This document shows positions 5,201-51,000 of a DNA stretch of 55,128 nt, in pieces. How positions within the stretch are numbered: position 1 is the first letter of the stretch; every line of letters starts with the position of its first letter. Made by a program: the position numbers and the translations under genes. The notes below the pieces were generated by a model, which was given only the letters and a program-made list of their open reading frames with translations, did not search any database and had not been told where the DNA came from. Source of the stretch: Saccoglossus kowalevskii (Eukaryota > Hemichordata > Enteropneusta > Harrimaniidae); NCBI RefSeq assembly GCF_000003605.2, contig NW_003107089.1, positions 554,658 through 609,785 on the forward strand, written 5' to 3'.

Positions 5201-6256
5201 TTTTGGAGGTTGGTCGATAAATGCCACACATTTTCCGAATTGTAAATGCATAAATGGTATATTTTTCATTATTATTATTAAGTTATTTACTTAATATTGT
5301 AACATCTATATTTTACTACAGCTGGTATTGATACGACCACCCATACAATGGATTGGTCAATCATCTTCCTCACCCGATACCCGGATGTACAGGCTAAAGT
5401 TGCTAGGGAAATCCATGAAGTAATTGGAAGAGACAGGCTGCCCTTAATATCAGACCGACCCAATCTACCATACTGTGATGCGGTTATCCACGAACTGATG
5501 AGAATACGTACTGTTGTACCGATGTCTGTTCCACACAAAGCATTGGTGGACTCAAGTATTGGTAATATATTATATTCTATTATATTATATTCTATTGCAA
5601 TAACAATAATATATAAAACTAAAACTGACAATTTTGGAACAATATAATCAAATTCTGTTTATTGTTAGGTGGATATCTGATCCCAAAGAATACATGGGTA
5701 ATGGTTAATTTATGGGCTGTACAGATGGATGAAAAACACTGGGATAACCCGCAAGAGTTTAGACCAGGTATGTTTACCGAGTAATGAAATGGTGAGGGGT
5801 TGTTGCTTAACATTGTATGAAGGTATTTGATCAGATATTTCTTACATGCAAAGTGTTTATTTTCTTTATAATCATAACAAACATGACTGTTATATTTTAA
5901 ACTTAAATATTAATTTTACAAAATCCATGAAAAACTAAATATTAATGAAAAGTAAATTTATTGTATCACATAAATTATATAACAATATCTATCTGTATAT
6001 TTCAGAGAGATTCATAGATAAAGACGGCTCACTCAAAGCAAAACAGGACAACTTCATTCCATTCTCAGCGGGTCGTCGTGTCTGTCTTGGGGAGTCCCTA
6101 GCTAAGCCAGAGATATTTCTGATGTTCACTTCTTTGTATCAAAGTTTCGCGTTTTCACAAGTGCCTGGTAAAGCCTTACCAAGTCTCAAAGGAAATGTTG
6201 CTTCGCTTGTTCTTAGAGCGCCTGAATATGAAGTAGTAGTTAAAAAAAGAATATAG
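2207..6256 (+). CDS. CYP17-like cytochrome P450, copy 1, with a nonsense codon at position 7
   Basis: Microsomal heme-thiolate monooxygenase of the CYP17/CYP1-like clade. Nine exons: 2207-2360, 2709-2882, 3323-3416, 4056-4217, 4577-4785, 5083-5208, 5322-5561, 5669-5767, 6006-6256. All have GT-AG borders and matching phases (503 codons with the stop; human CYP17A1 is 508 aa). Visible are the PPGP hinge (residues 38-41), the I-helix AGIDTT (307-312), ExxR (E364-R367), VPHKALVDSSIG, which closely resembles CYP17, PERF across exons 8/9, and the heme loop FSAGRRVCLG (439-448, Cys446). The oddity is TAA at 2225-2227 where copies 2 and 3 read TTA (Leu7). This truncates the N-terminal membrane anchor. 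The next in-frame ATG is 2285, after the anchor. Everything downstream is open, so this is a very recent pseudogene, a null allele, or a base-call error. Substrate is unknown; steroid chemistry should not be assumed from the resemblance. Confidence 0.85.
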
Positions 6257-14400: not shown

Positions 14401-14908
14401 GATAACCCGCAAGTGTTTAGACCAGGTATGTGCACTGTATAAGATAAATATGGGGTTGCTTCATATGCAAAGTTTATATTTTCATTCACACTGACTGTTA
14501 CATTTCATATTTTTATTAAATATTAATTTTACAATATCTATTCTATCTAGTATATATGGCGATGTTTACCACATAAAAAACAAATAAAATGTAGATCCAT
14601 TACCATTATTATTTATATCATATGAATTACTTAACGATATTTATCTGTACATTTCAGAGAGATTCATTGATAAAGACGGCTCACTCAAAGCAAAACAAGA
14701 CAACTTCATTCCATTCTCAGCGGGTCGTCGTGTCTGTCTTGGGGAGTCCCTAGCGAAGCCAGAGATATTTCTGATGTTCACTTCTTTGTATCAAAGTTTC
14801 GCGTTTTCACCAGTACCCGGTAAAGAACTGCCCAGTCTCGACGGAAATGCTGCGACGCTCGTTCTTAGAGCGCCTGAATATGAAGTAGTAGTTAAAAAGA
14901 GAATATAG
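10965..14908 (+). CDS. CYP17-like cytochrome P450, copy 2
   Basis: Intact paralogue of copy 1, 502 aa. Exons: 10965-11118, 11818-11991, 12404-12497, 13008-13169, 13333-13541, 13726-13851, 13973-14212, 14327-14425, 14658-14908. Phases are the same in all three copies. The start is the first ATG after the 5'UTR acceptor and gives MLLESIL followed by a hydrophobic anchor (about residues 5-27), so the enzyme should sit on the ER membrane. The PPGP hinge, AGIDTT oxygen-binding motif, ExxR, PERF and the Cys446 heme loop are all present. Amino-acid changes from copy 1 lie mainly in exon 3, exon 5 and the last 40 residues. An AATAAA at 15156-15161 may end the transcript. Closest known family by motif is CYP17, with CYP1 and CYP2 as alternatives; the reaction cannot be read from sequence. 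Confidence 0.92.
11328..11430 (+). repeat. AAAT tetranucleotide microsatellite in P450 copy 2 intron
   Basis: About 25 units of AAAT in the intron between exons 1 and 2. Copy 3 has only a short imperfect version at about 18823-18868, so the tract expanded after the duplication or was lost in copy 3. Confidence 0.9.
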
Positions 14909-21600: not shown

Positions 21601-22352
21601 CAAAGCATTGGTGGACTCAAGTATTGGTAATGCATTATATTATAATAATTAATTATCACCATTAAATTGACAACTTTTGGACTTGCACAGCAATCGATGT
21701 TTAACTGCAAATTAACTCCGTTATTTTTGTTGACTTTAGGGGGATATGTGATCCCTAAAGATACATGGGTAATGGTTAATCTATGGGCTGCGCAGATGGA
21801 TGAAAAACACTGGGATAATCCGCAAGAGTTTAGACCAGGTATGTACACTGTGTAAGATAAATATGGGGTTGTTTAACTCGGGATGCTATTGTATCAGATA
21901 TTGTTCATATACAAAGTTTATATTTTCATTCAGACTGACTGTTACATTTCACATTCTTATTAAATATTAATTTTACAATATCCATTCTATCTAGTATATA
22001 TGGTGATGTTTACCACATGAAAAACGATTAAAATGTAGATCTATTACCATTATTATCTGTATCACATGAATTACTTAACAATATTTATCTGTACATTTCA
22101 GAGAGATTCATAGATAAAGACGGCTCACTCAAAGCAAAACAGGACAACTTCATTCCATTCTCAGCGGGTCGTCGTGTCTGTCTTGGGGAGTCCCTAGCGA
22201 AGCCAGAGATATTTCTGATGTTCACTTCTTTGTATCAAAGTTTCGCGTTTTCACCAGTACCCGGTAAAGAACTACCCAGTCTCGATGGAAATGCTGCGAC
22301 GCTTGTTCTTAGAGCGCCTGAATATGAAGTAGTAGTTAAAAAGAGAATATAG
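18613..22352 (+). CDS. CYP17-like cytochrome P450, copy 3
   Basis: Intact, 502 aa. Exons: 18613-18766, 19261-19434, 19841-19934, 20429-20590, 20754-20962, 21147-21272, 21387-21626, 21740-21838, 22102-22352. It is closest to copy 2: exons 4 to 9 differ by only a few bases, and the intron sequences align too. Differences include exon 3 (NMTSEGFKDIVF against NMGSEGFKDIIL), Glu for Asp at the start of exon 6, and a few scattered substitutions. All P450 signature motifs are kept at the positions given for copy 1. The N-terminal anchor is intact. It probably encodes a functional microsomal monooxygenase with activity overlapping copy 2. Confidence 0.92.
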
Positions 22353-28012: not shown

Positions 28013-31000
28013 AGTTACTACAATGTGCGAGACCAAAAACACTGTTTTGATTATTGGAACAAAATGGCTGCCAGGAAGTGGAGAGCTTACAGTCCCAGCA
28101 ATTCAAAAAGAAATTGGAATAATGTTTGTAAAGAATGGTAGAAAAGTGTTATGTACAGTACTGGATGCAACAGAAGAAGAGAAAAATGATGCTTTACATC
28201 ATGGAATTGATCTCCTTCTGCCGATTATAAAACATCGTTTAAAGTGCAAAAACCCTACCACAGACTGGCTTATTTTGCATGAATCATATTTTCCATCTCT
28301 TCAGAACCGATCCGATATAGGCTTAATTATTGGCCATGCCACTATCAATGGAACGGCAGATGCAGCAAGATGCATTCAGTCTGAAGTTTTCCCAGCATGC
28401 AAATTTGTCAATTTATTTTACACCATCCCAGAAGATACAAGAACGACACCCGAGATGGTTCAAGAAGCGGAGAAAGAAATGTTAGAGTGTGCAAAATATG
28501 CTGATCTTGCTGTTTCATTAGGTCCTCGAGTGTGGAGGCATTACAATAACAAGTTTCGGATTTTCAAAACTAAGGAACACATTCAGTATATTCCATTTGT
28601 TGATGATAATATAGCAAAGTTGGAAACCACTTGCTCAAGTCTAGAAAATGGAATTGAAATTTTGTCTGTTCATCCCAATGTAGATGAAAACTGCCTTTTG
28701 GGATATACCAGAGTGGCTCATGCTTTAGCGCAGGTTGCAAAATCTTACAAATATGATGTTGTCAAACCAGTCTGGAAATTTATAGGATACCAATCATCTG
28801 AATTGAACTGTGATCAGTGTATTAATTACTTGAAGTCAAGTTCAAGACCCATAGGTATCAATTTCTACCCACCCCTGGCTTCCCTTGAAGATCTCCGTAC
28901 TGATTTTCATCAATGTCAACTTGTTGTTTTTGCACCAGAATCTGACCCATTTGGTTTAATTGCATTAATGGCCAGCATTGCAGGTGTACCATTCCTAACT
29001 ACCAGTCATTGCGGTTTTGCAGATTTTCTTTTGATGAACTTTCCAGACATTGCTGATAACTTTATTGTACAGGTCGATAATAATGAAGTCGATGTTTGGG
29101 AAGGCAAATTGATGGGGGTTGTGAGAAGGTATCAGATTGCATATGACAAAAGCCAACGATTAAAGGGTATACTCATACAGAGTGCCACAAATGGAGTGAT
29201 TGCTGAATCACATGCACGCTTTCTGGAATGGTGTTGTTCGTATGTGTGTGAGGTTTCAAACACTACAAAAGGTAAACAACTTCTGTCAAAATACTGTAAA
29301 AATAAAGGAAATTACAAAAAAGTATATATCACTGCACCACCAAAAACAGGGACTTATGCACCTACAATGATTATATGTCTTATGCATACTTTGAGTAATT
29401 CACTTCAAACTTTATACATACAGTACCATATAGTATATGTAAGCACGAATGTTGTCACCATATTAAAAATGGCCAGCTGCTGATCATTTTAGTTGTAAAA
29501 ATACATTAAAATCATATATTTTGACATGTCGTGGTGCGAATTAGATGCCTAAATTTGAATTCAGCATGAACTTTCTTAGAGCTAGTATATATACATGTAT
29601 ACTAATAAATGTTATGTATATTTTATATTTCCCTTCATATCAAACAAAAGAATACTATATTTTTACAGTGTTTAACATCATAATTACACAATAAATACTG
29701 CATTGCAAAATGTTTGCTTTTTAACATCTCAAGTCTAGAAACACTTAGTTTTGTGTCTAACACTTGTGTACTTTTCAAGGGATCAGCTCACAAATGCAAG
29801 GAAATCCTCATCCAACCATTCAATCTGAATCCGAGCTGCAGCCACAACCGAAGAAGCGTAAAAGACAGCCAGGTAAATATACCTATGCCATATTTTGTGA
29901 GATGGTTAGGAAATGCTATTGCATTCTGCTAACTGATAGATGTCCTCTACCAGAGATAAAAACACAACATAATAAAACAATGGGCATGAGACAAAAAGTG
30001 TTATAACTTATTATAATTCTATGCAACAGGTGAGCTTGAAATTGAAGTGAATGTGGATTCATTTGAAGAGACGGAAGCTCAGAGAGTTAGACAGATCAAA
30101 GCACAGACATTATCTGATATTGCTCGCTGCCTCTTCAGTAAAGTCAAAACAATTGACGAGGTCCCAGCTATGAAGAAGCACCTTGATGACATTGGTGATA
30201 TCATCTGTAAACACATTGACCATAAATGTCTGGTTGTTGTCGTAGAATGCCTGTCATTATCAGCTCTGAAGCGACTGTGGCAGGACTACAAAGTGGAGAA
30301 AATCAATTCTATCCTTCAGGAGGACATTGTTTCAGAAGATGTTTTGAGAGAATGTGGTGCTTCTAAGATTGTTTTGACAACTACAATTGAGAGATGGCAA
30401 TATCGTAAATGTTGCTTGGAACTACAAGAAGGTAATAATATATTTTTTGAAAATTCTTACCTATGAATTATTTATCACTTACTGTAGAATACTTTATTTT
30501 TGCTTGGAATTTATTTTCGCTATTTTCGCTGAAGGGATGATTCCGTGAAAATAAAATCCAGCGAATATACTTTTTTTCCTATATTTCACATTAAACTCAT
30601 CAGAAATCAGTGAAAATGAATTCCATACAAAACGCCTAAAAAGCCTTTTCAGCGAAAATTAATTCAAGCGAAAATAAAGTATTCCACAGTATTCTAAGTT
30701 GTATGACATTTCTCTTTTTCTTTTTGGGCACAAGTACAGATTTGAGAACTAAAGCTTGATTGATTTATATCAAAATATAAAATAAAAATCGTTTGAGTTC
30801 TCAGAACCACAAGCAAGCATAATAACAACAACGTGAACAGAATACTTGCAATGATACTGTATCTTTCATTTCATTACTGCCAAGGCAATAATTACGATTG
30901 GACCTAGCAAATTCCTGGCCCCCACAAATTACATGATGTAAATAATAATATGTCTTGTGGTCGGCCTGATAGCTTTAATGATCATAAGCCATCTTGACTT

Positions 31001-34000
31001 TATATTAGCTACATCTGACAATAAATAAATGAAATGTATTTTGTTGTAGGTAAATTGTTGGGAGATGAGAGTACCGAGACATGTGGTATCTGTGGGTCAA
31101 AAAAGACGTCAACTCAACTGACAGATGTACTGGTAATTACAGCTTATTCATGACTATTATTGGAGATATATTTTTAGTCCCCGTCGAGTGTAATCCAAAA
31201 CAGTTACTTATGTTTTAAGCTCAATCTACCTGTCTGACTACATTTCTTTGACATGCCTGACTGAACGTCTTGACAAAATTAGCTTGACATATTCTTTCTT
31301 CTCCCTCAAATGTCAACTTGGCCAAACTTGGACTTTGACAATGACTTAAGTATTGCTTGAGCACTACCACACGTTATTTCCAATATTGGCTCTGAATTAC
31401 TCGAGAAAAACATTAATGTGTTCAAGTAGTTCGGGTCACAATCTGTGACAATGCGAATAGTATTACGATCCAGATCTTTGCTTTGAAATATGCAAATATT
31501 TGATGATGAATTCTGTTTAACATACAATTTTATTTTGTTAATTCACTGACCTAAAAATTGTTGAACTTAAACTTGTTATATCAATTTAGCTTTCTTGCCA
31601 AGTTTCAATCTGTGTAAAATTCAATTTTACTGTGCCCAATTCTGGAATATTTACAGTAGCTAGCTGAATTGTCCAAGACTTCATGTTGGCAATATTATCT
31701 CTGGATTTTGAGTATGTTTTGTTGATCATTAATATAATTTGACCCAGTGTAAAAAAATATTGGTTGTTGTGGATCAAAATAGGAAAATGATATCACAGTT
31801 GCTCATATGATAAGACCTGTTATATTTTCTGGTGATGGCCAAGATTGAATAAAGGCTTTTACAAATTTTCCCATTTCCTCAAATATACTCTTGTTTTTGA
31901 AGAACACTAATTGCATTTTTGAGGCAAATCAGTTGTTTAATTCAAAATTAATTAACAATGATAAAATTTGGCAAGAAATTGCTGTAATTTTGCTATGAAA
32001 GGGTTTAAGAAAGTTAGAACTTGCACTTGATACATTGAGTGCCATCAGTTTACCCGCAGTATGTTGGTGCTGCATGTTGTACATTTTTTTAATCTAATTG
32101 TTATTATTATATGATGCAGAAACTACATCAGTTCATGCAGAGACCGATAATGACAAAGACGATATTAACAAGTGAAACCCATAGTTCCTCTATAGTGAGA
32201 GAGGCACTGTGGGCAACATCAGGTACAAGTAAATAAACTACATGGACAAAGAAAATCTTGGTGGTACTGTGAATATTACCTTTTCTATACGTTGCATTCT
32301 GAAGGAGGGTGGTCGGTTGGTCGGTCGGCCTATCTGATGATGCTCTAGGACAGTGCACAGATTTGAATAGTTTTGAGTTAAAATCTGTGCATATTAATTA
32401 CCTGACTTGCATAATTTGTATTTTTCAACTTTTCTTCAGACTATTTACGTGGATTGCCTGGATAATTGACTACTTAATCAGAGAATACAGATCACAAAAC
32501 AAATTGCATATCAAGTGCCTGTCAATCATGTAGTAATGTAATAAGTTGGAAAGAATTTTTTGTCTGAAAAATGATGTTGGATGACACATGGATGGACTAA
32601 CAAAACTCGTATTAATAGACTCAAACTATTAGTCTTGTAGTTTACTGATAATAACAATTTTTTTCCAACAGGGCCTGACCCATCTTCTGTACATCCACGA
32701 AGAATTACTGGTGTGGACAGAATTGAACCGTGAGCATTATTATTCAGTGTTATTTATCAGATTACATTGTATTTGTGTTTGGTTGTTTGTTTGCCTTCAA
32801 ATAGGAAATAAAAATGTTTATTGTATTTTTATAATCTGACCAAAAAAAAGTCATTCTATTTTCAATGACCTAAATAACTTTTTATTTTACCTTTTTGATA
32901 ATTTTTTTACTTTTACTTTGTGTATATGCAACATTCTAAATTACATTATTATAATTATATACACCAGTAATACGCATACTGAAAAATTTTTGAATTAATT
33001 CTCATCAGTATTTTTCCAAGTTATAGAGGAAATCATTTTCTTAATTTTTCACAGTGGCTATGATGTTATACTTCACTCGGAATCCTTGTGGGTTGAATAT
33101 ATAGAGAATGAAAAGTGACATAAAAAATTGTGAATTGCATTCTTCTACATTTGTGGAACTCTTTCATTTAGATCATTATATTGTTTGCCCGGACTTCCCT
33201 TTAATTATTTATAATATATATTTTGACTTGTTCAATGATAGTATCACACACTGGCGTTTTCTCTAAGTTATTAGCTTGTTTTGATTTTCTTTTTTCAGTG
33301 AACTTTATGGAATAGGTGCAGAGCTGAGCAATATTGGTGATGATCTTTCCACATATCAGGTATCAGTAAGTGTGTACGTTGTGATGTTAGTACATGTATA
33401 TACATAAAGCATCATCATGTATATTTTTTTCTAGGGATGGTATTCTTAATATAATAAAAACAAAAATGGATTAATATACAATTGGTTTTTAAAATAAAAC
33501 AAAAACAGATCTCATAAACGAAAGTGGGTTTTAAAAATTTATTTCAGAATCAAAAATGGTTATTAAAAAATGAATTGTAAGAATTGTCTTATTAAACATC
33601 ATGTTGTGAGCCACCTCAGTTGCTGTACACACCCCTTGTCATTTATGTAAGCGTATGTGCAACTAAAAAACAAATACAGTATCCAATGATTAAGCATTGC
33701 ATAACATTTTTGGGTCAATCCCAAAATTGTCCCAAAAATGTGTGTTTTACAAATGCATATCCCTGACTGTAAAATCAATGTCTAGCATATATTGTTTTAA
33801 ATCAAGCTGCACGATGACTGACATTTTAAACAATTGAAGAAAGAATTTGGTGTCATAAGTCAAGCTGTATTACAAGAAACTGAATAATCAATTGCCACAC
33901 TTTGATATGTGACAAAATGCATTTATAATTTCAGGACCATCAACTCCATGAACTCATCAGAAATTTTGAGTCACGACCTGAGAACAACTATGAGACATTC

Positions 34001-35141
34001 AAGAGTTGTCTATGGACACTTTTTGATGATTCTAGTTCATGGAGAACAAGACTGCTTGTTCTTGTTCTATTTAGTACTGATGTAGCTACTAGTCTTTTCC
34101 ATCAGAACGCAGCAAACACCGCAGTAAGAATCTTGTATCCTGCGCAAACTATCATGGGTTGGATCGCATGGAAGCGAAAATGGGTGAGTATGATCATGGG
34201 AACAGTATTGCATATTCACTGTGTCTTAATTTCACGAATTTGTCAAGGAGACAACAAGTTTTATTGTTATTCTACATGTTCACATAGATTTAATTTAGTG
34301 AATTTTACTAATCAGCGAAAATGGCAAAATTAAAACCCAGTAAAAAATTAATGCAGTTACAGTATACATTTAATTTTTATTGAAGCAATTTACATAGAAT
34401 ATAGATAACTGATAATGACCACTAATAACAGGACAACATTACATTTGTCTTTGTGAAGGGATTTAAATGCATTTTAAGAATTTACTCCACTTCTTCATGT
34501 GAGAATTCAGCTTGTTTCTCCTGGGGGCAATAAAATGCAAACCTAAATTACAGCAGTGACATTTTAATCGTCCAAAAATCTATTTTTAGGCACTAGAAAT
34601 TGAAATATACTTAGTATGTTTTGATTAGAAATGTTCTAGAGGATTGTTCAAATTTGATCTCTGTCCCCTGACAACCTGTAACTCAGACCACAGTCCCTCT
34701 ATATAGTGATAGAAAGACTGTGCTCAGACATACATATTCATGAAACATCTTGGGAGATTTATGCACTCCATTTTTTTCACTAAAAAAACACCAAAATCAA
34801 GCACCACAACTGTATCTTAGTCGTATATGGATGGATGTCATTCAAATTTCAAATATATGTTGTTGAGTGTTTTAGAGATTGGATTTGAAAGGCTGACTTG
34901 CCATTTTGTTTTAATACATGCCTTGACCGATTGCAAACAAACTTTATAACATAACACATAAATGTGCAGTTGTTTCAAAATGGCCGACTTATTCAGTTCT
35001 TTTAACTATTGAACAATCATGACATGCCTTGTCTAAGCGAACATAACATTTAATTTTGTTTTTCACTTGCAGTATTGGCTTTTGGCCTTAGCCCAACCGT
35101 GGATGATGTATAGTGTGAACTTGCATTTCTGGATGATGTGA
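28013..35141 (+). CDS. GT4-like / TRADD-N-like / BAK-like (Bcl-2 fold) fusion protein
   Basis: Nine exons: 28013-29271, 29780-29872, 30030-30431, 31050-31132, 32120-32222, 32672-32729, 33299-33365, 33935-34183, 35073-35141. Every junction is GT-AG and phase-compatible. The frame is open for 790 codons from ATG 28023. I chose this start because TTTCTATTTAG at 28002-28012 is a good acceptor just before it; an in-frame ATG at 27945 is the alternative. Residues 1-415 form a GT-B, GT4-type domain (VLIIGTKWLPGSGE near the N-terminus; ESDPFGLIALMASIAG from 306). Residues 440-445 (PKKRKR) are NLS-like. Residues 450-580 resemble TRADD-N domains of marine-invertebrate immune proteins (CLVVVVECLSLSALKRLW, then IVLTTTIERWQYRKC). 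Residues 664-790 resemble BAK: BH3 ELSNIGDDLS (671-680), NNYETF then SWRTRLLVLVLFS (BH1, W721), and GWIAWKRKWYW (BH2). Exon joining is solid. Domain names are by eye: GT high, Bcl-2 good, TRADD-N moderate. Confidence 0.8.
29272..29779 (+). other. Intron 1 of the fusion gene, with a readable extension and a polyadenylation signal
   Basis: If the donor at 29272 is not used, the frame continues for about 70 codons to TGA at 29481-29483. AATAAA follows at about 29604 and 29691. This could yield a GT-domain-only product. The extension has no recognisable motif, so it may simply be chance open intron sequence. Confidence 0.35.
30482..30689. mobile_element. TA-flanked palindromic MITE, family 1 copy A
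   Basis: 208 bp with about 40-bp terminal inverted repeats (CTGTAGAATACTTTATTTT against CTGTGGAATACTTTATTTT), flanked by TA on both sides. A second copy of exactly the same length lies at 54840-55047. The TA target and short length suggest a Tc1/mariner-type non-autonomous element. It sits in intron 3 of the fusion gene. Confidence 0.75.
34219..34362. mobile_element. MITE-like repeat, family 2 copy A
   Basis: Shares AATTTGTCAAGGAGACAA, ATGTTCACATAGATTTAA and AATTAATGCAGTTACAGTA with a second copy at 35858-35975. The ends are weakly inverted (CTGTGTCTTAATTT against CTGTAACTGCATTAATT). It lies in the last intron of the fusion gene. Class is inferred. Confidence 0.45.
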
Positions 35142-36191: not shown

Positions 36192-39100
36192 TTAAACTGT
36201 GCCATCGAACAATAATTCCAACGCTGCCTGTACATTACCACCTGTTATCTGTAATGCTCGTATACATCTACTTTCATCTGTTATCCCCATCTCTCGTAAT
36301 TGGCGTAACTGAGACTGAAAAAAACAAAAAGGACATTTATTGTTACAGCTATTGAACTGGTATTGAAAAGTATTTTTATAAATAGCCTTGAGAAACATAT
36401 TTCCACCATTCAGTCATTGCAGGCCTTGTTCCCCTGACCTATGTAAACCATAGTGTATCTAGTATTTGAAACAGTGGACTTGATAAAGAGAGAGACTCTC
36501 TTGCTCCCAATGTTATCTTGGCAGCCATTTGGGTCTATTCAGCAGTAAAATATGAAGAATTCTGACAATCAATGATTGCTATGACTGGTGTACTTAATCA
36601 TTCTATATTTGTAGGCCCTGATACGGTAAATGTTTTGTACATTATAATATAATAACAATACATGTACATAGTTTATTGCATGAAGTGCTGGTAAACGTTG
36701 AAGAATACATGTACTAGTAGTGTCCCTTTGACGAAACAATTTATCTTTTTTAATTACTAGTATTAAATGTTTGAATACCTAGTTTGAATAAAGCTAATGG
36801 CTGTGCTCAGCAACCACATTTGAGGTGAATAGTAGTTATATTGCTTTTATCAGAGAACGAACCTGCAGTTCTGGTCTAGATGGCGATGGAGATGAAGTAG
36901 GTGGTGTGGTATTACTTGATGATGAACCGGACATTGCCTGTGCCATGGCTTGACTGAATAAATCTGCTGTGATTGCACTTTGGCTGCTATTACTACTGGT
37001 AGACGGCTGGCTTTGATCAGCAGAAGCTGCAGAAGGCGTTCTATTGCTACCACCGGGACTGTCACCGAGTGATGTGCCCACACCTGCAGCAGCTAGCGCT
37101 GCAGCAAGCTGAGCAGATGTGATTGGTTGCGTGGAGGATTGTTGTTGTCGGTTACCCTGTGCCTGCAATAAAAAGGTGTATACCTAAGCACATAATCTGC
37201 TGAAGGCCTTCATGGATAGTATATAAGAGCATCAGCAGGCAATGGTTTAATTTTGATTTGCAATGAAAATAAAATGCAATATTAAGTGTTGCCAGACACC
37301 ATTTGTTACTCAATTTTGTACGCTGCATTTTGATCAACATTGCTGATTTACATATAATTGAGACAAAAAGAAAAGTCATACAAGTTGTTGCCCAATTTAA
37401 AATAACCAGTGTCTTTATCACCTGACTAATGACATAATATTACGGATTACAGCTGCGTTACATTAATCATTACATTTAAAAGCAATTCATGATTCGACGT
37501 TTATTACAATTAATATGTGACAATAACTTACGGATTCAGAAACTTCCATTTCTTCATCAGGAAACCCTAAAAAGGAAGCTGCACATAAAACGATAAATAA
37601 ACATCAGTTCATATTATACAAGGTATAGCATTTCAGCTTGCAAGTTGTTTTTCCGGACATGCAAAAATATCTTGGGGAAATTAAAGCTCTGTTTACAGAA
37701 TTGAAGTAAATAGTCAGTGCTGGCTATCTAGGTGTATTAAAGGACAGAAGATATCATTAGAAAATGAACAAATCTGAGAGAGGTCTACCTGAGGTCCCTA
37801 CATGTATAGTATCAAAACAATCAGACTTGCTGTTTTCAACAAGAAGTCGAAAATATCACTTTTTACCAAAAATAACAAATATATTCATCAAAATTAAAAA
37901 AATTTAAATATCATCATGGAATGAACAAATCTGAGAGAGGTCTACCTGTAGTACCTATAGAAGCAAAGCAATTACACATTTTCACAAGAAGTCAAAAATA
38001 TCACTTTACACCAAAAATAACAAAAATATTCATCAAAATTAGATCTGAGAGATTCAGAGAGGTCTACCTAAGGTATATATACACCAAATATCAAAGCATT
38101 CAGGCTTGTAGTTTTCAAAAAGAATTCAAAAAAGTTGACACAGACGACTGATGATGGACACGGACAATCACTCATATGATAAGCTCCGCTCAACAAAGCA
38201 AAGCTAATAAAATACATACCTGCTCCTCTTGAAGTAGCACTCTCTTCATTGACGGCAGCTGCTAAATGAAGTGCTGCTTCACCTAAAGCAGGATGAGCCT
38301 TTACTATTCTGGAGTAGGAGGAGGGAAAAAAACAAATCTGTTAAAGTGTTGTGTATCATTGTGAATCATTATCAATCTAGTAATTCATTGCCTTCTTGAA
38401 TTGCTTATCATGGTCATTGAATTTAGTAGTGGTCAAAACAAAACTAATTGATCCATTACAATTTGTCAGCATGAAAGTCCAAAACTGGCTCAGTAACAAA
38501 GTCATTTTGAGCAGTACTCTTATCACAGTATTAAATACCTATACTTACTTATGTATCATATTGTTGTGTACCATTGTGAATCATTATCAATTTAGTAATT
38601 CATTGCTTTCTTGAATAGGGTGAATTGCTTATCATGATTATTAACAAGTATCCATTGAATTTAGTATTGGTGAAAACAAGACTAATTGATCCATTGCAAT
38701 TTATCAGCATGAAAGTCCAAAACTGGCTCAGTAACTAAGTCATTTTGAGCAGTACTTCTATCACAGTATTAAATATCTATACTTACTTATGTATCATATT
38801 AGGATCAGCCAGCTGTATAAGTAATTCTGGGTCTTGTAGCATAGCTTGGATAATAACAAATATGATAAGTTAATAGTGTGTGAATACAATCACCTTTAAA
38901 AACAGTAATTATGACAAATTCTCTCTCATCATCAACTTCATTATATGCTGTCAGTAAGTCAAGTGTCAATGTTACTAAGCATGAAAGGGCCATATACTGG
39001 AACACTGTTCCCCAAAGCCATCTCAAAACGTAATACCACCCAGTGCTCAGAACAAATAACATTCTCTAGCATTCTTATCATGATATATTGGAGATTTAGT

Positions 39101-41722
39101 TCATACTATCTATTTTCTAAAATCAACACGATTTTGTTGAAATTTCCTAGTGAAGTTAATCAACAGGAACTACACAACCTCAATGCATTAGAAGACAGTT
39201 ACTCACAAGAGTATGGATATAGAGTTTATACACTACATACATCAGAACACAAGAATTTGAACTGATGCATACTTTACACATATTAGTCAATTATAACATT
39301 ACCGGTAAATAGTACTAGTATAAGAGCCTTAAGAATAATTCAACTACATGTGTATCATGTTATTCATATCTCAATTTGTAAGGAAGTTATGAGACATGAC
39401 CAAACAAATATCTCTAACAAATCTCTTCATAATCAATTATCTCATTTGCCTATTGATTCATTGTCAACTAAACAGTTTACTATGATGAAAACAAATTTAC
39501 AGTTTTACTTGAATAGTGATGCAGAAATGTCACAATGTAAGAAGTACGTTGATGAAATAACGTGTACATACCTAAAGCAGTTGGATCAGCCTGCAGACAT
39601 GGTGTAGCTGCAATCACATTGTCCAACATCACTCGACTTGTCAGTATACGAATCACCTGACAACAAATGATTGATAAGAAGAATCATGTACTATTGAAAG
39701 GAATGTGCTCTCCAACTGAAAATATCTGTCTTACATGAAATCTATTAAAACAAATATTTTTCTGAATGATCTGATGAAGAAGTTATGAAACATAGACCTA
39801 TAAATACCATAACACTTCTATTACTAGTAGATGCACCATCCGATTTTGGTTAAAAACAATTTTTTTTTTATTTTTCTCTAGTAATAGTTCTTTATGAGGA
39901 TAACTTGAGAAGAATTATGGTTTTTTTTTTGGGGGGGGGGTCACATGATCATTTGCAAACACGTTCGATTTTGCCCTGAAAATACCCATAATTCTTTTTG
40001 ATAGAACAATTTGGTCGAATGTGACACTATTCTCAAAAAAGCCAACTCAACCATGTACTAATGATTTAGTTTGGGGCACTCTGGCAGGGAGGTGTTCGCT
40101 TTAGACATGCTTTCAGTTTACACAGAAGACAGTGTAGATATATACCATTTGCTGTGTGTACTTACAGTATGTCTCTGGGCTGGGTTCAATAATGCTGACT
40201 GCAGAGCTGTAAGTAATTGCTGAATTGCTGCTTCATCCATGGGTTCTGTCGACAAAGTGTACAAGAAACATTTGGTATTTTGGCTGAAAACAGAAAGATT
40301 CTCCTTTTATTTGTATTAATTTTCCTTTTTTAAAATGAACTCCAACTCACAAAGTACAATGTATTAATATTATATTGAGTTGATATTGCTCAGTTAGATT
40401 TGACAGCTGGAAACGTTTAGAGAATCATCTCAAGAGCAACTTCCCATGTAATCAAATTTAATTACAGTAATACTACATGTGTATAAAATTATTTTTGATG
40501 TACGGTTTATGTATGGGTGTTTTATAGTTTGTTTGCATTCCCTTGTCCATTACACTTACTGTAAAGCTAATTAATTTTCTTGAAACAACCTAGCACAAAA
40601 ATAGTGATAGTGAAATTCATGCAAAAATAAAGTAGTCCACTGTAATAATAACAATTATTTGAGAATGACTTACCAGCCTCCATGCCAGTTTCTGGTTCCT
40701 TTTTTCGGAGGGCATGCAACGTGACTCCAGGTTTAACACCATAACTTTGTACAGTATTCTCATTTCTCATATAACGACCACAGTAAATAAGATCTATTGA
40801 CAAAGTATTGAGATAAAGATATGTAATGTAACTACCCGTAGTGTTACAACAAAAATCTTATTTGAAATGATCACCAAAGCAACAATGTACATTCCTCTAT
40901 AAATCCTAACGCAACTGAAACTGAGCCTGAATCTGTGAAAATTTGGCTGCTCATTTTTTGTGTACTGGTATGTTTTTTTTTGCTTTTCTGATTAACTGAT
41001 TAAGGCAATATCCACATAAATCAAATCTCAGCTACATGTATATTACAACCTTATNNNNNNNNNNNNNNNNNNNNNNNNNNNNNNNNNNNNNNNNNNNNNN
41101 NNNNCACACTAATAAAACTGTCTGCAGTCACAAAATTCAGTGTCCTGAGGTCTGATCTCAACAATATGATCATAAAATTATAACGCAGGGTTGCGTATAA
41201 TCCATTGTACCCCCCCCCCATTTATTTGACTGCAACATTTCTAAAAACAACGTTTTTACTAATACAGGAAGTGAATCATTTTGCCTCAATACATTTGTCT
41301 AGAAGAGAAAGTATTTGTAAAATGATTGTATGGCAGTTTGGAGTATGAAAATAACTGGTGCATATAATTACACCCACTGCTTTTATATTTGTTCCACTTG
41401 AAGTTTAAATTAAAACTATTGGAAGACACTAAGCTGCGGTCAAATGTGAGCGACGCCGGGCATAGTGGACACTAGTGTCTTTGTTATCGTAATACCAGCT
41501 GTTCGCTGTAAATAAATAGCAATCCTCGCGCCGGGCGACACACCAGGCCAGAATGCAACTAAACTCAGGAATTCTATTCTCACCAAATTGAGACTCGGCC
41601 AATGAGATTTTATCTGCCACTTGCTTCTTCAGGCTCTGGACGCTTTCGGATAATTGGACACCTTCTACTTGAATTCGTCCGGTTTTTTCGGGAACTTTTA
41701 ACGAAACACTGCAAGTCGCCAT
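36192..41722 (-). CDS. UBL7: Ubiquitin-like protein 7 (UBL and UBA domains)
   Basis: Complete in nine exons, from 5' to 3': 41722-41584, 40793-40674, 40245-40166, 39656-39572, 38844-38787, 38308-38220, 37566-37532, 37162-36863, 36314-36192. All phases agree and sum to 343 codons (342 aa; human UBL7 is 380). Residues 1-86 are the ubiquitin-like domain, with LIYCGRYMRNENTVQSYGVK matching human DLIYCGRKLKDDQTLDFYGI. The middle keeps LADPNMIHKIVKAHPALG (human FADPNMLDTLVPAHPAL) and ITADLFSQAMAQAM (human ITNDLFSQALQHAL). The last 40 residues are a UBA domain (LREMGITDESRCIRALQIT). It is a likely shuttle or scaffold binding ubiquitin chains through UBA and the proteasome or partners through UBL. 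The start used is ATG 41722; an in-frame ATG at 41749 would add nine residues. Intron 1 contains the assembly gap. Confidence 0.95.
37740..38215. mobile_element. Tandem-monomer mobile repeat in a UBL7 intron (copy A)
   Basis: About three diverged monomers of roughly 150 bp (AAGATATCAT, GAACAAATCTGAGAGAGGT, GAAGTCGAAAATATCACTTT, CACCAAAATTAGA-like). They are followed by a tail at about 38158-38206 that includes CAATCACTCATATGATAAGC. The same monomers and tail are at 42205-42980. The structure resembles Helentron-associated interspersed elements known from molluscs, with central about 150-bp repeats and a terminal hairpin. The element borders the splice donor of the exon at 38220. Confidence 0.55.
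38348..38800 (-). repeat. Tandem duplication in a UBL7 intron that copied an exon end
   Basis: Unit 1 is 38348-38562 and unit 2 is 38563-38800. Unit 2 includes the last 14 bases of the real exon (38787-38844) with its GTAAGT donor. Unit 1 contains the same 14 bases and the same donor (38549-38562 plus CTTAC at 38544-38548). A decoy 5' splice site therefore sits about 240 bases into the intron. Confidence 0.8.
40557..40646. repeat. Short MITE-like fragment upstream of a UBL7 exon
   Basis: Begins TACTGTAAAGCTAATTAATT and ends AAATAAAGTAGTCCACTGTA, in the manner of the family 1 terminal repeats, but only 90 bases long and diverged. Confidence 0.3.
41055..41104. other. Assembly gap of 50 N
   Basis: Fifty unknown bases in intron 1 of UBL7. 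Fifty is a common placeholder, so true length may differ. No exon is missing, because the exons on either side join in phase and match human UBL7 continuously. Confidence 0.98.
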
Positions 41723-41749
41723 TTTTTTTCGAGTACAAACATGGACCAC

Positions 41750-45038: not shown

Positions 45039-48000
45039 TCATATTTTGGATGACTCCTGAAAGTTCCTGCGCTGTCCACATATCAGACTCTGGATTACCC
45101 ACTCGCACGACACAATTGGTATCCGCAGTTCTTTGGCTTTGTCTTCTAGATTTTGTGGAAGTGTGTGGTCGGCTACGATGATGTCGAAATTCAGTGATGT
45201 TCCTGGAAGAAAAAAATATCAGTAAAATTTGAGGCACTCTGCTATTTCAAGTAAAATGAGATGTTTGTTTGTTCGGAAATTCTCCAAATCATAACCTATA
45301 AACATGAGATGTTTGTTTGTTCGGAAATTCTCCAAATCATAACCTATAAACATGAGATGTTTGTTTGTTCGGAAATTCTCCAAATCATAACCTATAAACA
45401 TGAGATGTTTGTTTGTTCGGAAATTCTCCAAATCATAACCTATAAACATGAGATGTTTGTTTGTTCGGAAATTCTTCAAATCATAACCTATAAACATGAG
45501 ATGTTTGTTTGTTCGGAAATTCTCCAAATCATAACCTATAAACACGAGATGTTTGTTTGTTCGGAAATTCTCCAAATCATAACCTATAAACATGAGATGT
45601 TTGTTTGTTCGGAAATTCTCCAAATCATAACCTATAAACATGTATTAAACTATTCCTCAGAATAAATATTTAAATCTAATCTAACTGTTGAGAAAACATG
45701 TTACAGTCGCTAAATTATTAGTACATATATTCTCCTTCACAAACATACAGAAAACATGGTCAATGTACCCCGGTAGCTCCTTTTTATGCGATATTTTAGC
45801 CATGCAAACTTAGCATACTTACTGGGCTTCTTGGAAATGTCAAAATCCTGCGGCAGAATAACGACTTTCTTACATTTTGCTGCCACAAGTATAGAACGCC
45901 AAAGGTGTTCATACTCTGGATCTTTAGAATTCCTAGACAGTACCAAAAAGCGAATACCATCAAATATATTCTGAGTTTGTTGCCTTCAAAAATAAACAGA
46001 ATCAAGAAAATATTAGGAAAATCTTGAGTGATAAACATGAATGTATAGATAACCACAAGATAAAAGAATGCACCCCAAAGGAAATAACTGAGCATTCTTA
46101 TTTCATACCCCCTAAGCAGATGTTAAAAGTGAATAATTTAATACAATATATACTAAAGAAAGATTGTCAAAGTACTCTCTGAATTATTTATTTGTAATCA
46201 TTGTAATTGAAATATGCAATATTTGTTAATCATTTTATTCGCATCATTCAATACCCTAATATTCTTATCATATGTTTTAAAATATGATTCTGAAGTACAA
46301 CGACAGCAATTAGTATGAACATGATAGAAACAACCGCAGTGTGTTCTTTTGTTACAATTTTTATATTCAGCCACTTATAGGCATTCTCGCTAATTTCGTA
46401 CATGGCCAAGTTCATATTCATGTATATCAAGGGCATACTGCAAGTTTTGTTTCATTTTTACATTTTGTATCGTGTTGCAAGTCCCTGGATTGCCAGCAGG
46501 CACGTTTATTACAAATCATTGTGTACATAATCACAACGTATTGTCCCCCACATAAATATGATATTCACTTGGTTTTAAATTCACTGGATTGTTATTAAGT
46601 TCACCAGACATAACGTACAATATTGTAGTTTGTTCTAAAGAAAAAATACACTCTATGACTAATATAAGAGAAAGAGAAAATTAAATACAACTAATAATTA
46701 ATTCATATACAGTAAACTAAGTATTCACCCAAGATGCAACAAAATAAATAAGAGGCACACTTACAATTCCATAACTGTCTCTGTTTCAATGTTTTCACCA
46801 GCCGGTAATAAATAGGATGGAACATCAAGCACATTGTTCTACAGGTTACACATAGGTATATATAATTACTAGTATATATATTCGATGACAGGCAAGTTTT
46901 GTTTACTAGAAATAATGTCCCTTGCCTTACCACATTATAAAGCATTTATGATTTTCAACAAGTTACAAACAAATGCATTAAAGACTAAGGATTTGATTAA
47001 GTTACTGGAATAAAACTGGGTACTGTTGCATGTGACTGCTATATACGCTAACAGTGACACCTGAATTTCTGCTATATGTATGAAATGTATCGAAAAATGT
47101 AGCAATTTTAGTGTCAATCACACACTATGGGATACATTTCAAACATAAGAGAGAGCAATACCATTTACAATGGTGGTTTGAATTTAAGTAAATAATTTTA
47201 GCATTATAATGCACCTCACTTTCGTCTATAAATGAAAAGACTTTGACTGGGATCACTGTATACAGTGGTCACATGCAACAACAGTTGTAGAGTTGTCGTG
47301 CTGGATCTGTGGTCAGTAGGTTCCCGAGTCCAAATCCTACCTGGGGTTGAATATAAATTCACCTACCAGTTTACAACTGTAACTCAGCCACAAAAAGGAA
47401 ACACAAGGAATACCAGCTGCTAAACATTGGAAATACTTCTTTGTCCTGCAGTATGTGTTTGCCAGTAAATAGACCTTCAGCGACACGTCTGAAAATTTAA
47501 ATGCAAGAGAAGTAATTACTGTACCACTTCAAGTGTGCAGTGAGTGTAGATGTCAGTGTAAATTAGACAGAGGGTTTTCAACTCGCCTATTCACATAGTT
47601 CATACCCACCTACAGACTCCGGTCAGTCAAAATGATTATTTTGAACTGTAGGCATTAATCTGCGATTCAGCCAATGACGGAGAGAGAAATCTAGGTCATG
47701 TCACGAACCACGTGACTGAGGCAATGAGGCGGAGCCATATTGCCTCCCCAGTCACTTGTGGTTCTTTTTCTCCGCACGGAGGACTAAGCCAACGCTACGG
47801 AAAAGTGGGGTGGTCGGGATCTAAAAAGATCCTCCTCAATGAATTGGGTATCTCTTAGGTAGAAGTGATAAAGATATTTTGCGTTCTCGAGAAGCCTGCC
47901 CTCAGCACATGTTCGAGGGGGCACCAGACGCAAGAGCTAATGAGACCTCATGTGCTCGTACTTGGTGTCTCTGTAGACCCTGTGTCGAGAATGCCAAACA

Positions 48001-51000
48001 GTTATAAACCTTGAACACGGTTGCAGTGATCCACCTGACAATGGAAGTCGAGGAGGCTGGTCTATCCTGCTTACCCTGGGCATAACGCATAGACATGTGT
48101 TTGCTGCCATGCCTCGACTCCCTAGTACGGCTCTCGTGGCAACTCAGTGCTCAAAGCGGGCACAGAAGCAACTCCTCCTGATCCTTCTGGTCAACAATGT
48201 TGCCAGCGGGGGGATGATGATCGGTTGTGGATCGTGTCCTGGGATTTGATTCTTGGCGAGGAACCTGATTCGTGTCTTTAGCACGACCCTAGTTCAGACA
48301 GACGCCTACCTGAGGCGAGGGCTATTAGTAAGACTGTTTTCCACGTCAAATATTTGAGTGGTGCTGATCAGAGAGGCTCAAAGGGCGGTCTGTTTAGAGT
48401 GGACAACACAACCGACAAGTCTCAATTAGGTGGTTCCCTCGTTCGGGGTCTAGGCCTCTAATTAGGCAGTAAAGTCTCCTAAAAGTAGGAGTACCGGCTA
48501 GCCTTGTCCCCAGAGATTTCTCAATGGTGGGTGACAAGGCTGACCTATAGCCAACAATCGCTGAAAGGACAAGCTCATTACGTCAAACAGATGGATGAAA
48601 AGTCAGCTGCTTGGCCAACAGAGGGATGGCATGGATCAATCTCCCCTCCACTACACCAATCAGTGTATGCTCGCCATTTTGAGACGTAGGCTGTGTTGGT
48701 GGGATCCCTGTTTGCCATGGCCAGGACGTTGGCAGCCCACTCAGAAAAAACCTGAGCAAGACAAATAAGAGCCTTGATGCATGTAAGTGGTACACCGCTG
48801 GGCTCAGAGTCCGGAAGCCCCACTGATGTTTCGACTAACATTTCCAACAATAGTTGAAACCAGGCCTTGCTTGGCCTGTTGGGTGCCACCCGCGTCAAGT
48901 GCAGGTGCACTCCTGTCAAAGTTTCTTCAGTACCCAAAGAATACTGGGAAGGCGTACATGTCCATGTGGGTCCACGGGGTCGACAGAGTGTCCCTGGCTC
49001 CTGGAGTGTCGTGTGCGCCAGGAGCTTGGCATTCCGGGGTGTGGTGAATAGGTCTAACTTTAGGCCGTCCTATCGCTAAAACAGTCTGGAGGCTATCCCT
49101 TGGGGTATCTGGCACTCCACGTTCTGGAGATGGAGCCGCCGTGAGAGCGTCCGCTTGACTATTCCTCAACCCTGGAAGGTGGTGTGTGGTTAGCTCAACA
49201 TTGTATTCACATTGTAGTCTAGGGATCGGTTACGCGCTGCCTTCGAGCCGGAATACACCGGCGCAATCTGTGCGACAGATATGTGGGTTCAGCGGTTCTA
49301 TATCAGGGGTGATCTCTCCTCCGCCAAGGTGAGACCCTGCGAGGCCTGTAGAAGTCAATAGGTTCCTGCCGAACATATGCCCATCCCCCTTGCCGCAAGC
49401 AGAAGCACCAAACTTGCTTCCCCTGTGAGCTGGATAGGCGACCACCACCTGGTCCCTTCTTGGTCCCTTCTCCTGTCGCCACTTTCCCCTCCCTCGGAAG
49501 AGCCAGGAAGCTTTGATCGTCACATTTCCTTTGGGTCCTTTCCACTTGCCCTTGGCAGAAGCCAAACACACAGTCTCACTTGTACCAACCGGTTGGTGGG
49601 ATCCCGAATCACCAAGACTGCTCTTTACATCCTCAAAAGAAAGAGGGTGGGGTGGGGGTGGGGGGTGGTGGGGATTTCAGTCTGCATAACTAAGGTGGTG
49701 GAGCGCCCAGTGAAAACTAGCCAAAACAAGGGGGAGGACTCTCATGCTCATGCTACACCCCACTCACTCACGTTCACATTACTACACATGCGACTGCTGT
49801 GAACCAGAGTGACGCGGTGACTGTGAATTACAGCAATTTGCATGCGGCCTTGAAACGCATCCTATTCTCTAGGCAAAAACCAGAGCCCCATATACAGTCA
49901 AAACACAAATAGCATTTGCTATGTGGGTTGCAAGCTGGTAATTCCTGGTGGCAACTACCGTACAATCGCCCTGATCCTTGGGGCGACAAAAAAGAAGGTG
50001 AAGAGCCTCTGGCATGTTACCCTTTAGTTCTGTCCATTTCTAAAAACAACATTGATAAAAATGAACAAGACATGCATAAGAGGAACGAATTACAGTTGAA
50101 AGCTGACACAAAAAGAACCAACGACGTGGTCAAATTTGCGTCACCAAATTTTTTCGTTCTTGTAAGCAATGCACACAAAAATGCGAAACAGGGGTAACAA
50201 ATAAGAAAGGCTTATCCTACCAGCCACAACGTCAGCTGCTACGCAGATGACAGCTAGCCAGATCAAAAACTCGAGCAGGAAAAAAATCTGGATGACTGAA
50301 ATGCACCGAAGTGACTGGGGAGGCAATATGGTGCCGTCTCATTGCCTCGGTCACGTGGTTCGTGACATGAAGGAAAATCTTGAGGTTATGAGGCTTCCCC
50401 TGACCTAGATTTCTCTCTCTGTCATTGGCTGAATTGCAGATTAATGCCTACTGTTCAAAATAGTCATTTTGCCTGACCGGAGTGTAGATGTCAGTGCAAA
50501 GTATATGCCTTTTACATGTATGAAGACAAGTGAGTGTAGAAGTCAGTACAAAGTATATGTCTTGTACTTGTATGAAGTGAGTATAGATGTCAGTGGTAGT
50601 TGAGCACTTAGTATGCAGTGGAGGTGGGTGTTAGATATTGTATTTCTACACATGATTTTTAATGCAGTGAGTTCATAACTCTCAAAAACTATGTATGACC
50701 GAACATTTCTTACCACAGCTTCGTCAAAACTGTTGAGAACTTTTCCTCCACCATCTTTTATGAGTTTTTTAATAGCTTCCTTCTCGAAAGGAATATCTGG
50801 TTCTAGTGAAAGAAAACAAGATAAATCTTAAAGACAATCACGACACAACACATGAAGGCGCATCACTCAGTAATATACATCTGCATATGCTAATTTATTA
50901 TGAATATTCATGAGAAACTATGAAACAAGAAACAGGCTCACTACATCACAGGTGAGTGAAGTGAAGCAGTCAACGATGAAATCAAAAACCGAAAAACCTA

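Follow-up and report, generated by a model that had tools for sequence, protein, structure and literature searches.

In hemichordates, cephalochordates and cnidarians, proteins have been reported in which a GT4-type glycosyltransferase domain is followed by a TRADD-N domain and then by leucine-rich repeats (LRRs), and these proteins have undergone lineage-specific expansion; their GT4 domain was proposed to be an effector modifying invader or host molecules (Kaur et al., eLife 2021, PMC8195603). In the available text of the same report, one sentence mentions proteins that combine TRADD-N with a Bcl2 domain, with neither the species nor the presence of GT4 stated, and TRADD and DEDD2 appear as adaptors in death signalling, DEDD2, a TRADD-N protein, being described as nucleolar. 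A metazoan-wide survey of Bcl-2 genes from 2022, as far as its accessible text goes, names Bax, Bak, Bcl-2R1L and Mcl-1L as the members found in the acorn worm Saccoglossus kowalevskii, and identified no non-Bcl-2 proteins with a Bcl-2 homology (BH) signature in the same organisms (PMC8998228). Here we analysed a stretch of 55,128 nucleotides from S. kowalevskii (contig C166:554658-609785), the whole of which we call the window, and found on its plus strand a gene, LOC102807814, for which the following can be shown from the sequence: three domains, GT4, TRADD-N and Bcl-2, lie in one predicted chain, the GT4 domain has lost both glutamates of its E-x7-E motif, the BH3 motif is intact, and the Bcl-2 region occupies the place where three sibling loci have ankyrin frames.

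The predicted protein shares with the published GT4-TRADD-N-LRR proteins, including those of hemichordates, the position of GT4 before TRADD-N in one chain, but it has a Bcl-2 domain and no LRR in the Pfam listing, three of its siblings having ankyrin frames, and its GT4 domain is without the catalytic glutamates, in contrast to the modifying effector proposed for the published proteins. With the published TRADD-N-Bcl2 fusions it has both domains in common, and the fusion mentioned in the 2021 report, whose bearer is not named in the available text, may be LOC102807814 itself. TRADD and DEDD2 share with it the TRADD-N homology, but in place of a Death or DED domain, neither of which was found in a Pfam scan of the window protein at E up to 10, it has a Bcl-2 domain. 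In common with BAK and BAX it has sequence similarity from BH3 to helix 5, a BH3 motif and a splice donor after the BH2 tryptophan, whereas it differs from them in about 600 additional N-terminal residues, degenerate BH1 and BH2 motifs and a short, weakly hydrophobic tail. In the accessible part of the openly licensed literature we found no description of LOC102807814 or of GT4, TRADD-N and Bcl-2 in one chain. An earlier reading of the window from its letters alone (hereafter the sequence-only reading) had known of no such chain ending in a Bcl-2 domain; that novelty is reduced by the TRADD-N-Bcl2 and hemichordate GT4-TRADD-N proteins of the 2021 report (PMC8195603). What is distinctive is the triple domain combination together with the consistent glutamate loss in TRADD-N-linked GT4 copies.

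Nine coding exons with GT-AG borders form one open frame on the plus strand, from the ATG at 28023 to the stop codon at 35139-35141. The sequence-only reading had assembled nine in-phase exons into 790 codons; the exons are borne out as a gene model and the frame is indeed open, its length being 789 codons (788 amino acids and the stop). The spliced product agrees in 788/788 residues with the NCBI protein LOC102807814 of S. kowalevskii, annotated as "uncharacterized". All three domains lay where that reading had placed them, as hidden Markov model searches and profile comparison indicated: GT4-conflict at residues 9-385, TRADD-N at about 468-580 and Bcl-2 from about 663. Accidental joining of unrelated exons was rejected on account of the exon phases, the identical NCBI model and the donor in BH2. 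Because an acceptor-like site lies 10 bases 5' of the ATG, where exon 1 begins, a non-coding exon is probably present upstream. A search of 5.8 billion protein sequences returned LOC102807814 alone, and since it also missed same-genome paralogs of 35-40% identity, it is uninformative on other species.

Exon 1 (28013..29271, +) encodes residues 1-416 with the eroded GT4-conflict (GT-B) domain. Residues 9-385 match the Pfam family GT4-conflict (PF20706) with E 1.5e-31 and 110.2 bits against a cut-off of 26, and exon 1 alone reaches E 2.5e-32. The residues with roles in GT4 catalysis are the E-x7-E motif, an R...K pair and a GG loop. In the window protein the two glutamate positions are D308 and M316, those of R and K are P and L, and the second glycine of the loop is replaced with the first kept, so that the motif set of an active GT4 enzyme is not present and the domain reads as a putative pseudo-enzyme. 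The loss of both glutamates and of the R...K pair from this copy lends support to a sensing, non-enzymatic role of the GT-B domain, sensing being what the sequence-only reading had suggested.

A genome search with exon 1 gave 37 matches, the window included, and the alignment comprised 34 rows, namely the window and 33 other loci; the matches on C4225 and at C3772:22264 were left out, and one locus (L053) contains two matches. The motif columns were readable in 33 rows, L058 having none. Both glutamates are kept in 14 of these (L006, L008-L019 and L049) and not in the remaining 19, to which the window belongs. Seven GT4 matches (window, C3614, C4098, C1342, C3421, C1053 and C2730) have a TRADD-N exon at most 3 kb downstream on the same strand, and in 7/7 of them both glutamates are missing, compared with 14/26 other readable rows that keep both. 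The arginine is likewise missing in all seven and the lysine in six (L046 keeps one), and the GG doublet is broken in 6/6 linked rows with a readable column. Two of the linked rows are weak cases, the C3421 copy for its in-frame stops and the C2730 copy for its poor alignment. One genome search with window exon 3 showed no TRADD-N exon closer than 3 kb to the 14 glutamate-keeping rows, and none near the 12 unlinked eroded rows. Linkage may have been missed in two further copies, C4347 lying at a contig end and C466 running into a retroelement-like stretch. R and K vary even among the glutamate-keeping rows (L013 and L014, for example, deviate). In prokaryotic GT4 relatives the second glutamate is kept in 25/25; the scan pattern contained the first glutamate, so the second alone is a fair control. 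The absence of both glutamates from all TRADD-N-linked GT4 domains seen in the genome, which is the new observation here, the GT4-TRADD-N and TRADD-N-Bcl2 fusions being already known (PMC8195603), argues that GT4 in TRADD-N fusions would be a binding module and not the modifying effector proposed in 2021. As a separate observation, L046 (C3421:90357-91783) is a GT4 match with five in-frame stops, either a pseudogene or an intron-split copy, with a TRADD-N exon 2.7 kb downstream.

Exon 2 (29780..29872, +) encodes a linker, residues 417-447, and is followed by exon 3 (30030..30431, +), which is in phase 1 at both ends and carries the TRADD-N-like domain, the stretch matched by Pfam being residues 506-543. 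In the genome exon 3 has 10 matches, itself included (E up to 0.1). Among its nine paralogs, four match TRADD-like_N (PF20694) with E 6.1e-6, 0.0014, 0.062 and 0.15, and the other five do not; L034 is the sole one above the curated cut-off of the family (26.4 bits). When the window exon and the five non-matching paralogs were combined in one profile and compared with a profile of the four matching ones, L034 among them, the two aligned with a probability of 99.4 and E 1.9e-21, whereas the negative control, a comparison with Bcl-2, gave a probability of 0.5. A search of the TRADD-N profile against PDB found no TRADD structure, and a globin at E 0.03 was taken as chance. The Pfam TRADD-like_N search of the genome gave six matches, the window exon not being among them, and the family had a sub-cut-off match in 1/14 control genomes. 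At the level of homology, exon 3 is thus shown, via its paralogs, to encode a divergent TRADD-N domain.

The Bcl-2 region is distributed over the last exons. Exon 5 (32120..32222, +) holds a possible Bcl-2 helix 1 (SSSIVREALW), which aligns weakly with L036 and L037 in their helix-1 regions; exon 6 (32672..32729, +) is a linker preceding BH3; exon 7 (33299..33359, +) carries the BH3 motif GIGAELSNIGDDL (667-679); exon 8 (33935..34183, +) covers helices 3-7, named by homology, with degenerate BH1 and BH2; and exon 9 (35073..35141, +) adds an aromatic tail of 22 residues and the stop. When the last 207 residues were compared with PDB, the best match was BAK at E 5.7e-6, and 22 of the 29 sequences listed were BAK entries with E <0.01; the other matches listed were not significant (FAM118B 0.066 and 0.12, a BAK chain 0.3, Bcl-2-like 4 (BAX) 0.43 and Mcl-1 at least 0.88). 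Alignment of the Bcl-2 region with hhalign gave a probability of 93.8 and E 1.7e-7. Three canonical S. kowalevskii Bcl-2 exons, the window excluded, were combined in a profile that scored the window domain at 33.2 bits, compared with at most 6.8 bits in 5000 shuffles (3282 scored); chance similarity of the C-terminus was rejected on this result. When 2308 six-frame open reading frames from the window and seven sibling stretches were scanned with the same profile up to E 0.5, exon 8 was the sole match (E 2.9e-6). All BH3 residues are intact (I668, L672, I675, G676, D677, D678 and L679); of the degenerate BH1 and BH2, the BH1 tryptophan and both BH2 tryptophans remain, at a spacing of 40 residues, compared with 44, 44 and 42 in three canonical exons. 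We conclude that the predicted C-terminus is homologous to Bcl-2 proteins. We use "BAK-like" as a statement of similarity only, because in the tree of the 2022 survey neither Bak nor Bok groups with any S. kowalevskii protein, although a Bak of this species is listed in its available text (PMC8998228).

Gene structure gave two further marks of this homology that are independent of residue similarity, a BH2 donor and a BH3 acceptor. Exon 8 ends in KRKW|gtgagt in phase 0, with the donor directly behind the second BH2 tryptophan, and a donor follows the BH2 tryptophan in 5/5 BH2-bearing S. kowalevskii exons (L036, L037, L039, L040 and L042), the donors and acceptors of relatives being those predicted from sequence. 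In mouse pro-survival genes this exon border is described as highly conserved, and it is also retained in the Bcl-2 genes of sponges and placozoans and in sponge Bak analogs, according to the available text of the survey (PMC8998228). Counted from the split codon at the exon 7 acceptor, the 13th full codon is that of the BH3 glycine. The position and phase of this acceptor are the same in the BAK-like BH3 exon L041, the one comparable gene, which has 54.5% identity to the BAK stretch. The Pfam Bcl-2 search of the genome omits the window's own domain, so further divergent Bcl-2 domains may be missed by it. One divergent Bcl-2 exon, L039 (C1344:212778-212996), has a BH1 motif, TSWRG, nearer to the SSWRT of the window than to NWGR and is a possible relative of the fused domain (E 0.097).

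The sibling loci suggest how such a chain could have arisen. In three of the six siblings (C4098, C3614 and C1342) ankyrin-repeat frames lie downstream of the TRADD-N exon on the same strand. In all 10 TRADD-N exons the best-scoring donor is in phase 1, directly past the domain. In the window gene, exon 4 (31050..31132, +; residues 582-609, holding CGIC) serves as an adapter from phase 1 to phase 0, and exons 5-9 behind it start in phase 0. A clear AG|GTA donor was seen in five of eight ankyrin exons inspected, and all five are in phase 0. The exon phases would thus fit an exchange of C-terminal blocks behind a constant pseudo-GT4-TRADD-N front. No convincing relatives of the linker exons 2 and 4-6 were found among the S. 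kowalevskii loci compared. Since the GT4 matches and the canonical Bcl-2 matches have no contig in common, the window holds the one GT4-Bcl-2 neighbour pair observed in the genome. At C1053:292600-295370 (L069), a 209-codon charged frame, coiled-coil-like by eye, follows the GT4-TRADD-N pair and is perhaps a further type of C-terminal module.

We propose that the product of LOC102807814 is a chimeric member of the hemichordate GT4-TRADD-N family that acts inside the cell in defence and cell death. The GT4 domain would bind a ligand, such as a nucleotide sugar, a glycan or an invader protein, instead of transferring sugar; binding would cluster or open the chain through TRADD-N; and the BAK-like domain would then act at mitochondria, where its BH3 helix could activate or join host BAK and BAX. 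The fusion probably originated, as the exon phases suggest, when an ankyrin block downstream of the phase-1 TRADD-N exon was exchanged for a block of Bcl-2 exons. We give this explanation, its mechanism included, about an even chance of being right. A more far-reaching version, which we consider unlikely, is a cytosolic single-chain death receptor, in which a pseudo-glycosyltransferase senses invader sugars or sugar nucleotides, TRADD-N acts as the only hinge in between, and the chain's own BAK-like domain is driven into mitochondria, one protein thus serving for recognition, transduction and execution; in the family, exon shuffling would exchange an ankyrin for a Bcl-2 module at the C-terminus while the pseudo-GT4-TRADD-N part stays constant.

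Several observations weigh against the proposal. By itself, exon 3 matches TRADD-like_N only at E 0.04 and 14.2 bits, under the cut-off of 23.7, and an Ig-like CFAP65 model matches it slightly better (E 0.0065), also under cut-off; the latter identity was taken as chance, being absent from all nine paralogs. Likewise, the C-terminal piece reaches E 2.5e-5 and 25.2 bits with Pfam Bcl-2 (PF00452; cut-off 31.4) and E 0.0023 and 17.9 bits with an NCBIfam Bcl-2 model (cut-off 283). The consensus of BH1 is NWGR and that of BH2 WIxxxGGW, as is also visible in aligned Bcl-2 exons; BH1 (SSSWRTR) and BH2 (WIAWKRKW) of the window keep little past the tryptophans, with NWGR and GG lost, and the 22-residue tail, with a highest mean Kyte-Doolittle value of 0.83 (19 residues), would be a weak membrane anchor. 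In the GT4 alignment the 12 unlinked eroded rows also miss at least one glutamate, some keeping one, so that erosion extends beyond the linked group, and the rows are related paralogs, not independent cases. The siblings C1053, C3421 and C2730 have no ankyrin or Bcl-2 frame within the 2.8-5.1 kb of DNA examined, and the comparisons of fusion loci cover one species, S. kowalevskii. The single transcript is predicted, resting on matching gene predictions that confirm the nine-exon model. Exon 2 contains PKKRKR at residues 440-445, which we take to resemble a nuclear localisation signal, so nuclear placement is possible; if the signal works, the proposed mechanism would require release or shuttling. 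The sequence-only reading had described a multi-BH Bcl-2 domain that may trigger death directly, and its interpretation is supported in part: BH3 is of textbook form, BH1 and BH2 are conserved in little beyond their tryptophans, and direct killing is hypothetical, given the degenerate BH1 and BH2, the poor anchor and PKKRKR. Pore formation by the predicted domain is hypothetical as well, in view of its degenerate motifs and weakly anchoring tail.

The same features can be explained by a BID-like regulator, a Bcl-2-fold domain that makes no pores and, once clustered or cleaved, offers its BH3 helix to other members of the Bcl-2 family. A complete BH3, the loss of most BH1 and BH2 signature residues and a weakly hydrophobic tail speak for it; the retained BH1 and BH2 tryptophans at nearly normal spacing, BAK as the best database match and the absence of the caspase-type pattern DxxD[GSAN], the single pattern looked for, between TRADD-N and BH3 speak against it, and we regard it as doubtful, if a serious contender. 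The Bcl-2 family includes pro- and anti-apoptotic members, and at such divergence function cannot be read from sequence, so the domain might instead be a decoy or survival factor that sequesters BH3 proteins or invader Bcl-2 proteins and blocks death; its closest match and the intron upstream of BH3 are BAK-like, however, and its BH1 residues are altered, which makes this very unlikely.

A different kind of explanation concerns the gene model, in which two adjacent genes may have been wrongly joined, the first with GT4 and TRADD-N and an end near exon 3 or 4, the second a small Bcl-2 gene from exon 5. Translation from the first methionine in exon 5 would yield about 174 residues, a length that suits a small Bcl-2 protein, no convincing relative of exon 4 was found among the compared loci, and the single chain stands on gene prediction. 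Yet all exon phases agree and the NCBI model is identical, the window exon shares the phase-1 donor past the domain with every other TRADD-N exon, and in three siblings ankyrin frames lie downstream on the same strand. We consider such a misjoining quite unlikely and retain the single-chain defence and cell-death protein as the preferred explanation.

The surroundings of the gene showed some further features. Upstream of it, the terminal exons of three cytochrome P450 genes, similar to one another, lie at window positions 5939-6253, 14588-14905 and 22032-22349 (+), with Pfam p450 E-values of 2.6e-16, 5.5e-17 and 5.1e-17, apparently in a tandem array. Downstream, frames at 41429-41749 and 36200-37183 (-) resemble by eye a ubiquitin-like N-terminus and a UBA-type C-terminus, the former having no Pfam match. 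A minisatellite at 45252-45642, with a 48-base unit in 8.2 copies and 98% matches, is open for 136 and 141 codons on the two strands. Open frames at 48578-49676 (-) look by eye like retroelement remnants, two frames scanned having no Pfam match, and a stretch resembling them sits downstream of an eroded GT4 exon on C466 (L072).

In the context of the Bcl-2 family, LOC102807814 is an apparent exception to the finding of the 2022 survey, in its available text, on BH signatures outside Bcl-2 proteins (PMC8998228). If it is translated as predicted, a single chain would connect intracellular sensing with the death machinery of mitochondria in the acorn worm, without helper proteins.

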